From: Halorubrum salinarum
Lineage (GTDB): Archaea > Halobacteriota > Halobacteria > Halobacteriales > Haloferacaceae
Direction: 5' to 3'
Length of the DNA: 64,000 nucleotides
NCBI RefSeq assembly: GCF_013267195.1
Contig: NZ_CP053941.1
Location: 992,001-1,056,000 of the forward strand
Part shown: one piece after another, positions 34,779 to 45,422 of the stretch
Layout: every line of letters starts with the position of its first letter
How positions within the stretch are numbered: the first letter of the stretch is position 1
Program-made: the position numbers and the translations under genes
Notes under the pieces: model-generated
Told to the model about the DNA's origin: nothing
Database searches by the model: none
Seen by the model: the letters and a program-made list of their open reading frames with translations, nothing else

Positions 34779-35234
34779 ATGTTCGGGAGTTCGAGCGACG
34801 ACCTGACCGACGAGGGCGGCTACTACCACGCCGCGACCTCCGACCTGTACGTCGTCGACGAGGGCGAGTACTACGTCGTCGCGACGGACCGGAAGGGGCG
34901 CGACGACGTGGCGTACATCGTCGAGCAGGACGGGAAACACGTCGTCTCCGAGGGGTACAGCGGCTGGGGCGGCGTTCTCGACGGCGACACGCTGTGTTAC
35001 GTCGTCGAGCAGGACGGGAAACACGTCGTCGCCGAGGAGTACAGCAGTTGGGGCGACGTTCCCGACGGGGACACGCTGTGTTACGTCGTCGAGCAGGACG
35101 GGAAACACGTCGTCTCCGAGGGGTACAGCGGCTGGGGCGACGGTCCAGACGGGGAGCGCTTCGGCGAGTTCGACGCCGATCTGCCCCCGGTCCTCGGCGT
35201 GGCGGTGCCGCCGCGTTCGGTGACGGGGATCTGA
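34779..35234 (+). CDS. 28-residue tandem-repeat protein, function unknown
   Basis: The protein has 151 residues. From residue 48 a unit VEQDGKHVVSEGYSGWGG (18 of 28 residues) is repeated almost three times with period 28, including a Trp-Gly pair and DGDTLCYV. The N-terminal 47 residues look like a diverged copy (SDLYVVDEGEYYVVATDRK). There is no signal peptide or membrane helix. The pattern suggests a short beta-repeat fold. GTTTTATCC lies 30 nt before the ATG. It follows the secretion genes but has its own promoter. Confidence 0.8.
   Translation: MFGSSSDDLTDEGGYYHAATSDLYVVDEGEYYVVATDRKGRDDVAYIVEQDGKHVVSEGYSGWGGVLDGDTLCYVVEQDGKHVVAEEYSSWGDVPDGDTLCYVVEQDGKHVVSEGYSGWGDGPDGERFGEFDADLPPVLGVAVPPRSVTGI
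34920..35159 (+). repeat. 84-bp tandem repeat inside the 28-residue-repeat gene
   Basis: GTCGAGCAGGACGGGAAACA begins at 34920, 35004 and 35088, an exact 84-nt period. Copies differ by a handful of bases (for example TCC-GAG-GGG against GCC-GAG-GAG), so the duplication is recent or kept by gene conversion. The last copy is truncated. Confidence 0.9.
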
Positions 35235-35293
35235 CCTCGCCGACGCCGCGCCGACACGAGCCTTTTCTGCCGCGCCCGCGTAGGTCGACCCCC

Positions 35294-35968
35294 ATGGACG
35301 AGAAGACCGCCGAACTCCGCGACCTGTTCGTCGAGGCGACCGGCTCGGAGACGGTCACTGAACGCCAGGAGGCGGAGCGCGGGACCCTCGTCGACCGCGA
35401 CGATGAGTCTGTCGGCGAGGCGGTCCGCAATCTCGTCGCCGCGATGCGCGAGCGGTACGGCTTCTCGACGCCGCTCGGCGACGCCGCCTACGCGCTCGTC
35501 GCCCGCGCCCGGTTCGCGGACGAGGGCGACGAGTCGATCGCCGCAGCCCTGCGTGACGAACTGGACGACGGCGACGGCGACGTCGATCCCGACGAAATCG
35601 ACGCCGAGACCGTCCGAAAGGCCCGCCTCGACCTCCACCTCGTGCGCGAGTCGGACCGCGAGGTCGACGCGGGCGGGGACAGGGGGGGCGATCCCCCGTT
35701 CGCGTACGCCGACCTGAAGCGCCTGACTGCGGCCGGGAACTCGATCGTCGAGTGCGCCGAGGAGCTGGACGCGCAGCCGGACGCGGTCGCCCGGTACGCC
35801 GCGGTCGCGCGCACCGACATCGCCTCCACGCGGGCGAACGACCGGTTCCGCGACGCGTTCCGCGACCTGCTCACCGACGCCGACATCCAGGGGTCGCTCG
35901 CGAGCGACGCCCGCGAGGACGGCCTGCGCGAGGCGACAGAGGACATCGAGACGGACGTTTCCTTATAA
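35294..35968 (+). CDS. conditioned medium-induced protein 4 family
   Basis: The protein has 224 residues. The N-terminus MDEKTAELRDLFVEATGSE with TVTERQEAERGTL is the pattern of the haloarchaeal 'conditioned medium-induced protein 4' family (recalled). The protein is acidic, soluble and mostly helical; a later CAEELDAQPDAVARYAAVART segment could be a helix-turn-helix-like unit. Molecular function is not established. CCTTTTCTG lies 28 nt upstream: probably leaderless. Confidence 0.75.
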   Translation: MDEKTAELRDLFVEATGSETVTERQEAERGTLVDRDDESVGEAVRNLVAAMRERYGFSTPLGDAAYALVARARFADEGDESIAAALRDELDDGDGDVDPDEIDAETVRKARLDLHLVRESDREVDAGGDRGGDPPFAYADLKRLTAAGNSIVECAEELDAQPDAVARYAAVARTDIASTRANDRFRDAFRDLLTDADIQGSLASDAREDGLREATEDIETDVSL

Positions 35969-35987
35969 GTAGTCGGCCGCGGAGCGG

Positions 35988-36320
35988 TGACCGACACCGC
36001 CAACGCCCCAGCCGCTCGGTGATACGCAGTTGACGGTAGAACAACAGCGAACACCGTCAAAGCCCCAGCCGGGAGGACTCGCGCGGCTCGATGCGGTCCT
36101 CGTCGCTCGTTCCACTCGCTCCTGCGGTCCTTACATCGCCGTGCTTCGCCCTCCCGGCTGCCCTTTTGAATCCCGCCCCGCCCCGCACAGCGACCGCACC
36201 TCACGCCTCCCCAGCCTCGTCGGCCGGCCTCCGCTTCGCTCCGGCCGCCCGACTCCCTCGCGCGTGCGACTCGCGGCCTTCGGCCGCTCGCCGGCACGCG
36301 CCGTCGTTCATTTATAAGCG
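35988..36320 (-). repeat. structured dispersed repeat, copy 1 (candidate RNA or MITE-like element)
   Basis: This spacer shares long blocks with 44958-45335 in opposite orientation. CAA(A/C)GCCCCAGCCG occurs twice, 57 nt apart, at 36001-36014 and 36058-36071, exactly as in copy 2. Stems: 36067-36078 with 36148-36159 (12 bp, one wobble on the minus strand), outer TCAAAG 36057-36062 with 36164-36169, GCGCGTGC 36260-36267 with 36294-36301, and GCGGCC/GGCCGC inside it. A TATA-like TTATAAATG (minus strand, 36308-36317) sits at its 5' end if read on the minus strand. The strand given is the one favoured by wobble pairs. Confidence 0.75.
36306..36318 (+). promoter_or_regulatory. TATA box at the end of repeat copy 1
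   Basis: TTCATTTATAAGC ends the repeat and lies about 28 nt before the GTG of the Cas4-like gene, so it probably drives that gene as a leaderless transcript. The near-palindromic core also reads as TTATAAATG on the minus strand, facing into the repeat. Confidence 0.55.
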
Positions 36321-36340: not shown

Positions 36341-37033
36341 GTGACCCTCGTCCCGTTCAGCGACCTGGCGCGCGCGGCGTACTGCCCCCGACAGCTCTAC
36401 TACGTGCGGCGCGACGACGAGCGCAGCGTGCCCTCGAAGGCGCGCGAGCGGATCGACCTCGCGTTCCGCTACGAGGAGTTGGCCGACGCGCCCGACCGAA
36501 CGCTCCAACAACTCCCGCTTCACCGATCAGCGGGCGCGTACCGCCGAAATCTGCGTCGGCTGCGCGAGCGCGACGAGTACGAGGCCCTCGTCGACCCCGC
36601 GACCGAGCGCGGCTTCCTCTCGGGCAAGGACTGTCACGGTACCGTTCACAAGGTGCTGGAGTTGGGCGAGGAGGGGAGCGATCCGGACGGCGCGGACTCC
36701 GCAACCGCGATTCCAACGCTCGTCTCGTCGGGGGAGCCCCCGGAGAACGGCGTCTGGGAGCCGCAGGCGGTCCGCGCCGTCGGGCTCGCGAAGGCGCTGG
36801 CGTGGGAGCGGGAACACGAGGTCGACCGCGCGCTGGTCGAGTACCCCGCGGTCGGGGTCGTCCGCGAGGTGCGGCTGACGACCCGGAAGAAGGCCGCGTA
36901 TCGCACGGCCCTCCGCGCGGCGCGGTCGATCGACGGCCCGCCGCCGCGCGTCGACGACGACCGCTGCGACGCCTGCGACTACGCCGCCGAGTGCGGCACG
37001 CGGCGACGGAGCCTGCGGTCGCTACTGGGGTGA
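36341..37033 (+). CDS. stand-alone Cas4-like / PD-(D/E)XK family protein
   Basis: The protein has 230 residues. FSDLARAAYCPRQLYYVRR at the N-terminus, the GVWEPQAVRAVGLAKALAWE helix, VEYPAVGVVREVRLT, and a C-terminal CDACDYAAEC give the Cas4/Dna2 layout with four cysteines for an iron-sulfur cluster. The nuclease triad is not obvious: where Cas4 has D and E-x-K the protein reads GKDCHGTVHKVLEL and TLVSSGEPPE. It may be inactive or use other residues. No cas genes or CRISPR array are in the window. GTG start, leaderless. Confidence 0.75.
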   Translation: MTLVPFSDLARAAYCPRQLYYVRRDDERSVPSKARERIDLAFRYEELADAPDRTLQQLPLHRSAGAYRRNLRRLRERDEYEALVDPATERGFLSGKDCHGTVHKVLELGEEGSDPDGADSATAIPTLVSSGEPPENGVWEPQAVRAVGLAKALAWEREHEVDRALVEYPAVGVVREVRLTTRKKAAYRTALRAARSIDGPPPRVDDDRCDACDYAAECGTRRRSLRSLLG

Positions 37034-37708: not shown

Positions 37709-37887
37709 CGTGTGTGTGTCGTCCGCATGGGCACGAATGACGCGAGACACTCGCGATCGTTCGGAGGATAGAGGAAGTCGCCTCGCGGCGGCTGGCCGCG
37801 AAATTCTCCGGCGATAACGACGACGGGGCACGACCGCCCCGCGGCGGCACCGACCCCGAGACCACCGCAGAGCCGACGGACTCCCTT

Positions 37888-44957: not shown

Positions 44958-45335
44958 GAGTATTTATAAATAGGACTGCGGTGGCGCGTGCCGGTGAGCG
45001 GCCGACAGGCCGCGAACCGCACGCGCGAGGGACGCGGTGAGTGAGGGGCGACCGCAGGGAGCCCCGAACGAGCCGCGAGGCTGGGGAGGCGTGAGGTGCT
45101 GTGCGGTCGCTGTCGGGTGGGACTCAAAGGGGCAGCCGTGAGGACGAAGCCCGGCGCAGTAAGCACCGCAGCGAAGGAGCAAAGCGACTGAGCGAGGAGC
45201 ACAGCAAGCCGCGCGAGTCCTCGCGGCTGGGGCTTTGAAGCCGTTCGCCGTCGATCTACGGTCAGCGATGTATAAGCGAGCGGCTGGGACTTTGAAATCG
45301 TTCGCCGCCGATTCACAGCCGGTTATTTATAAATG
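44958..45335 (+). repeat. structured dispersed repeat, copy 2 (candidate RNA or MITE-like element)
   Basis: This is the inverted counterpart of 35988-36320. Plus-strand stems: GCGCGTGCC 44985-44993 with its partner near 45020-45027, GCGACCGCA 45048-45056 with TGCGGTCGC 45102-45110 (perfect), AGCCGTGAGGAC 45134-45145 with 45216-45227 (12 bp with one U-G), and TCAAAG 45124-45129 with CTTTGA 45233-45238. CGGCTGGGGCTTTGA recurs 57 nt later as CGGCTGGGACTTTGA (45281-45295). Both ends carry TATTTATAAAT (44960-44972 and 45324-45334). It lies between convergent ilvA and trxB, an untranslated site. Confidence 0.75.
44960..44972 (+). promoter_or_regulatory. palindromic TATA-like element at the start of repeat copy 2
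   Basis: GTATTTATAAATA precedes the GCGCGTGCC hairpin of the repeat by about 15 nt. The same kind of element bounds the other end (45324-45334). Either could be a promoter or part of a terminal inverted motif of a mobile element. Confidence 0.4.
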
Positions 45336-45422
45336 AACGGTCGACCCGCGGTCTATCAGTCGTCGGACCCCGAAAGCGAGACCGAGCGGAGATACGTAAG
45401 AAACCGCGGAACTACGCGATTA

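Follow-up and report, generated by a model that had tools for sequence, protein, structure and literature searches.

The REP/REPIN, ERIC and BOX sequences of bacteria are structured intergenic repeats that are dispersed and at times occur in inverted pairs. The repeat that is analysed here can be likened to them by description, but differs in its large core, whose invariant internal loops are kept order-wide. The palindrome-associated transposable elements (PATEs) of Haloquadratum walsbyi carry near-terminal palindromes that are related to IS605-type transposons (PMC3119063). Like the PATEs, our repeat is haloarchaeal, multi-copy and transposase-free, has hairpins and heterogeneous copies, occurs in short terminal-only versions and is invaded by smaller repeats (PMC3119063). 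However, its conserved part is the internal core, and no resemblance to the IS605-type 3' ends of its own genome was found. IS6-family elements are recognised by GG tips, cTGTt and 8-bp repeats (PMC7986276), and one form of our repeat, found in a genome of another genus (G137, genus g46), resembles the MITEs of that family in its GG..CTGTT tips, inverted repeats and 8-bp duplications (PMC7986276), whereas the Halorubrum copies lack such ends and the core also exists without them. With multi-copy structured Rfam RNAs, the repeat has covarying stems, conserved loops and a strand bias in common.

Repeats of this dispersed, structured kind are commonly dismissed as relics. Whether they function as RNA or as single-stranded DNA, or are inert, is an old question, which can be tested directly here in genetically tractable haloarchaea. 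In this study, we consider the repeat to be best explained, with a probability of about one half for the explanation as a whole, as a mobile, non-autonomous element with a conserved single-strand fold that probably acts as RNA.

Two copies in the window and anatomy of the element

The window, i.e., the whole stretch of 64,000 nucleotides of Halorubrum salinarum that was analysed, holds only two copies, while two further copies lie just beyond its left edge. The features of the two copies in the window were as follows.

35963-36320, minus strand: copy 1, whole element, with the 5' end at the right and the 3' tail at the left
36311-36317, no strand: 5'-terminal TTTATAA of copy 1; the GTG of the flanking gene, at 36341, follows it at the distance of a TATA box
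36260-36302, minus strand: hairpin H1 of copy 1, GGCGCGUGCC..GCACGCGC, with an internal tandem G-A/A-G
36219-36253, minus strand: hairpin H2 of copy 1, stem hypervariable
36200-36218, minus strand: conserved box GAGGCTGGGGAGGCGTGAG of copy 1; the 15-mer of the box has 54 places in the own genome, control 0
36058-36168, minus strand: core hairpin H3 of copy 1, with an outer CAAAA/CTTTG stem, a G-rich symmetrical loop, a 13-bp stem and tandem G-A loops
36001-36014, minus strand: second, degenerate CTGGGGCTTTGG box of copy 1, part of a 57-nt 3' tail unit
35963-35968, no strand: 3'-terminal TTATAA of copy 1, whose TAA also serves as stop codon to the ORF 34994-35968
44963-45333, plus strand: copy 2, whole element, bounded by TTTATAAA at 44963-44970 and at 45326-45333
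44983-45026, plus strand: hairpin H1 of copy 2
45033-45077, plus strand: hairpin H2 of copy 2, CGCGG class
45081-45095, plus strand: conserved box CTGGGGAGGCGTGAG of copy 2, the 15-nt search pattern
45125-45237, plus strand: core hairpin H3 of copy 2
45281-45294, plus strand: tail of copy 2, second box, 57 nt past the first

The initial annotation had described the two copies as an inverted match with boxes 57 nt apart. Both statements were confirmed: the arms are 35942-36102 and 45193-45353, and the boxes lie at 36001-36014 and 36058-36071 in copy 1 and at 45224-45237 and 45281-45294 in copy 2. Aligned over the whole element, the copies have a mean column identity of 79%. The covariance model R1, which represents the core hairpin H3 and was built on 47 own-genome copies, matched copy 1 at 36033-36178 (141.8 bits) and copy 2 at 45115-45262 (149.1 bits).

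Read on the strand that the initial annotation had named, the element begins with TTTATAAATGAACTGCGGT, H1 (GGCGCGUGCC, tandem G-A/A-G loop, GCACGCGC), GAGGGA and H2, continues with GAGGCTGGGGAGG(C/T)GTGAGG, a G-rich spacer, GGGACTCAAAGGGGCAG and the long stem of H3, and ends with CTGGGGCTTTGGCGGTGTTCG and a tail that carries TATTTATAA. The stem of H2 has many unrelated sequences, yet it is paired in nearly all of the copies, and the long stem of H3 contains conserved internal mismatches. The second, degenerate tail box was present in 21 of 53 own-genome copies and lay exactly 57 nt off in 14 of these (control 3/53). An H3 tip inverted in place was seen in three cases, two on G000:C1 (501087, L061; 1064022, L043) and one in an ortholog (L087); it puts the conserved loop bases on the opposite strand. 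A kink-turn in H1 or H3 was also considered and rejected by hand; the tandem G-A is present, but the position of the bulge does not fit.

Copy number and distribution

In its own genome, R1 had 60 matches at 58 places, 57 of which are on the main chromosome (C1, 2.94 Mb), and the single match on C2 is weak and truncated. A BLASTN search with copy 2 gave 42 matches in this genome, and the 54 places of the 15-mer, with at most one mismatch, were all on C1 (reversed control 0). Across 35 Halorubrum genomes, GAGGCTGGGGAGG was counted 12 to 164 times per genome, compared to 0-4 for the controls. Within the family, R1 matched 87 of 119 genomes, representing 21 of 28 genera; within the order, it matched 131 of 195 genomes from 48 of 66 genera. 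Counts per genome were capped in these large searches, and where no low cap applied, R1 gave 1 to ~90 copies per genome. The model thus annotates the core in most of the haloarchaeal genera tried. When named genomes were scanned with the core pattern, there were solely haloarchaea (Halobacteria) among the matches listed. Outside of Halorubrum, the core is often solitary; in several genera, two cores sometimes stand head to head, separated by a few tens of nt.

The plasmid matches to copy 2 were all weak and came from Halobaculum, Natrinema and Haloarcula. The exact core pattern was absent from 2.9 million viral contigs and there was no match among 50,697 phage records, and a viral or phage origin was rejected on these grounds. 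No Rfam 15 family was reached at its gathering score, the permissive matches being far under the threshold of each family, and assignment to a known RNA family was likewise rejected. A description of the repeat was found neither by sequence nor by words in the open-access literature searched. The repeat family is new both to Rfam and to this literature.

Covariation and fold of the core

The initial annotation had proposed a structured repeat family with selection-like covariation on the named strand, which was strongly supported by a many-copy alignment that exceeded both the shuffled and the slid controls. Among the 47 own-genome copies of H3, 98.2% of the cells were paired compared to 83.3% after shuffling (0/500 shuffles), 22 of 34 pairs showed double-sided change, and 234 cells were doubly changed compared to 68 in the shuffled alignments; sliding the partner by 1-3 columns lowered the pairing to 28-44%. 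The structure as fixed on Halorubrum paired 98.3% of the cells in 84 non-Halorubrum matches, an alignment that was fitted to R1, compared to 71.7% in the shuffled control. In these cores, 29 of 34 pairs were doubly changed (654 cells vs 169 shuffled). Relatedness among rows can by itself lift an alignment above its shuffles, as the tool cautions; it is preserved in the slid controls, in which 33-46% was paired, and solo folds are independent of the alignment. The stems that had been drawn for copies 1 and 2 were also returned as the consensus structure by free RNA folding of each. The named strand folded better than its complement in copy 1 (-59.3 vs -54.9 kcal/mol; z -3.5) as well as in copy 2 (-58.2 vs -50.3 kcal/mol; z -3.8), and solo folds gave the same structure with the plus strand (element sense) better in 3/3.

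The asymmetry of wobble pairs, first read from a few stem positions, held on a larger scale, with 40 G-U against 9 A-C cells in the 47 own copies and 76 against 12 in the 84 cores of other genera. This excess, in total 116 G-U against 21 A-C for H3 on the strand of the initial annotation, argues against a cruciform of two strands. The outer pairs of H2 had 4 G-U and 10 A-C and hence no bias to this strand, in a count that used a fixed register and understates the pairing in the CGC class; the strand bias therefore rests on H3. The unpaired loop bases are invariant order-wide, and the GGG/GGG, A-A and tandem G-A mismatches are unchanged across the order inside hypervariable stems. It is the fold, rather than the ends, that the whole order of archaea keeps. 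G-runs (GGGYGGG, GGGG, GGGG) are also conserved around H3 (cores L196-L222), and in a KCl-rich cell they could possibly form a hairpin-closed G-quadruplex.

Ends and mobility

In G137, near-identical copies revealed a ~377-bp element with GGTACTGTTTAGAT.. inverted repeats. Its target duplications were exact and 8 bp long at two copies and 8-9 bp long at a 62-bp terminal-only copy; they were found in 3 of 6 copies, the other three showing none. As it has both terminal inverted repeats and target duplications, the element takes the form of a MITE in this genome. No full IS6 element with these ends was found in that genome. The MITE form implies that the element can be the cargo of a MITE; the core is nevertheless conserved where such ends are absent.

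In Halorubrum, only the palindromic TTTATAA recurs at both ends, and no target duplication was recognised by inspection. The copy at 1413501 alone has a 14-nt direct repeat, ATTTATAAACGAAC, which was rejected as a target duplication because the consensus ends account for its letters. Terminal repeats with target duplications, which the initial annotation had named as the mark of a plain transposon relic, were seen in one other genus and not in Halorubrum, where the element is not a plain relic. The 3' flanks of 13 TnpB (IS605-type) genes in the own genome had no box or end in common with the element, and an IS605/TnpB origin was rejected for this reason.

Long residence at fixed sites

At the site of copy 1, upstream of the 36341 gene, the element occurs at the same place and in the same orientation in 11 species, the own species included; in the related species, the flanking gene is 82-86% identical to the own gene. 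Most of the more distant species lack it at this site, and the elements that do occur there are probably independent, two of them (L095 and L097) being in the opposite orientation. The stems of the orthologs differ widely, but each full main match retains all or all but two of the 33-34 scored pairs; 97.9% were paired compared to 83.0% in the shuffled control, and 17 pairs were doubly changed at this site alone (13 rows, two of which are overlapping second matches). Some likeness is kept between the orthologs in the end sequences and none in the interior, which suggests that interior parts may have been exchanged between copies.

Near the site of copy 2, there was a match at 15 loci. In four of these, H3 was mostly deleted, which indicates that a given copy is dispensable, and one further match, with 28/34 pairs, has started to lose its pairing. 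No clean empty site was found near copies 1 and 2, the insertions being too old. The old copies at the site of copy 1 retain the fold, which contradicts the decay of pairing that is predicted for a plain relic.

Transcription signals and gene context

The TATA-like box noted in the initial annotation is present at 36311-36317, but does not define a strand because TTTATAA is palindromic and also found at the other end (35963-35968). Its use as a promoter of the element was rejected. Such a box was within 45 nt of H1 in only 22 of 53 copies, mostly at 18-21 nt, so that a transcript starting ~25-27 nt after the box would begin inside H1, and TATA-like boxes were all but absent from the 200 nt upstream of solitary cores in other genera (1 match for 104 cores). 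Around the solitary cores, there was neither a conserved promoter nor a T-run terminator. In copy 1, the box lies at promoter distance from the 36341 gene, which reads away from the element and has a weak Cas4-like match below the cut-off.

All 53 Halorubrum copies were intergenic according to a simple codon-usage gene caller, with 16 between convergent, 7 between divergent and 29 between co-directional genes and no strong orientation rule. In a small, score-drawn sample of solitary cores from other genera, the downstream gene, ~70-150 nt away, had the same direction in 25 cases vs 10.

Interpretation

The initial annotation's proposal of a transcribed structured RNA family was supported in part, with its structure well backed and its transcription a conjecture. 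RNA is the likeliest folding molecule, a view that is based solely on the wobble bias, the tandem G-A loops and the invariant loops, which are usual for RNA. The element would be a dispersed non-coding haloarchaeal repeat that is built around a core of ~110 nt folding on one strand. This core may act in a folded, single-stranded form, most likely as RNA from read-through or from a weak start of its own, and a protein or other partner would recognise its invariant internal loops (GGG/GGG, GAC/GA, AA/GCA, tandem G-A) and, as a further part, the outer GAAAG/CUUUC stem. The copies would multiply non-autonomously on differing transposon-like ends, i.e., as an IS6-like MITE in one genus and as TTTATAA-flanked units with H1 and H2 in Halorubrum. 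After insertion, the copies would persist for a long time; compensatory mutation and putative exchange between copies would rewrite their stems in place without loss of the fold. It is tentative, and we would sooner doubt than assert it, that the repeat is a new functional, order-wide class of haloarchaeal structured RNA that is selected at its sites while the stems are rewritten and that has spread via borrowed transposon ends.

The folded strand could instead be single-stranded DNA of a purely selfish element, in which a trans-acting HUH nuclease of the IS200/IS605 or REP type uses the hairpins as its substrate and pairing is kept for movement only. The strand asymmetry fits one DNA strand equally, no promoter was found, and both tandem G-A and C(GAA)G tips have a very high stability in DNA too. 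The tandem 3' tail units and head-to-head pairs also resemble REP and PATE layouts (PMC3119063). This reading is unlikely, though it deserves attention, as the 3' ends of the 13 TnpB genes share neither box nor end with the element, the ends vary between genera but the core does not, and the fold is retained in copies resident across 11 species. It is more doubtful still that there is no selection on the fold and that the arms are matched by template switching in quasi-palindromes together with gene conversion between copies. The three in-place inversions of the H3 tip are the trace that switching within a hairpin leaves, and unlinked copies have identical H2 arms, but such a process would erase mismatches, yet those in the hypervariable stems persist order-wide, and it would not yield G-U over A-C at 116:21.

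The preference for the main chromosome (57 of 58 places, although 12% of the DNA lies on other replicons), the intergenic position of all sites and the lack of strand bias in H2 taken alone (4 G-U, 10 A-C) would suit a site in double-stranded DNA, such as a cruciform or a chromosome-organising or insulating element. Since a cruciform folds both strands, A-C should equal G-U, which is not the case in H3, and we regard this reading as improbable. A plain, functionless MITE relic is very improbable; the true MITE form in G137 and its 62-bp terminal-only version speak for it, whereas nearly all of the pairs are kept in old copies, above the neutral rate at fixed sites, and the core is conserved order-wide with unlike ends.

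Minor observations

Small double-hairpin inserts, for example GTTCACGAGAGC..GCTCTCGTGAGCCAATCAGAACGC..GCGTTCTGATGG and TCGCCGGCG..CGCCGGCTGCCAGAG..CTCGCTGG, were observed within H1, H2 or H3 of several copies, both on G000:C1 at 450244 (L035), 924653 (L038), 1105685 (L045), 1281058 (L046) and 1432160 (L066) and in relatives (L080, L113, L185); they recall the SMR elements in the PATEs of Haloquadratum. In two relatives (L126 and L129), the loop of H2 is TTTATAA/TTATAA, the same motif as at the boundary of the element. The 3' tail of one copy in genus g36 (L163) consists of tandem ~73-nt units whose sequence is unrelated to the 57-nt unit of Halorubrum, and both units begin with GCCGGCTGGGGCTTTC. 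Elsewhere in the window, a leuA-Halobacteria cis-regulatory RNA (RF03001, 73.4 bits) was found at 37757-37809, and three 84-nt tandem repeats, which are 83-90% alike, at 34914-35165.
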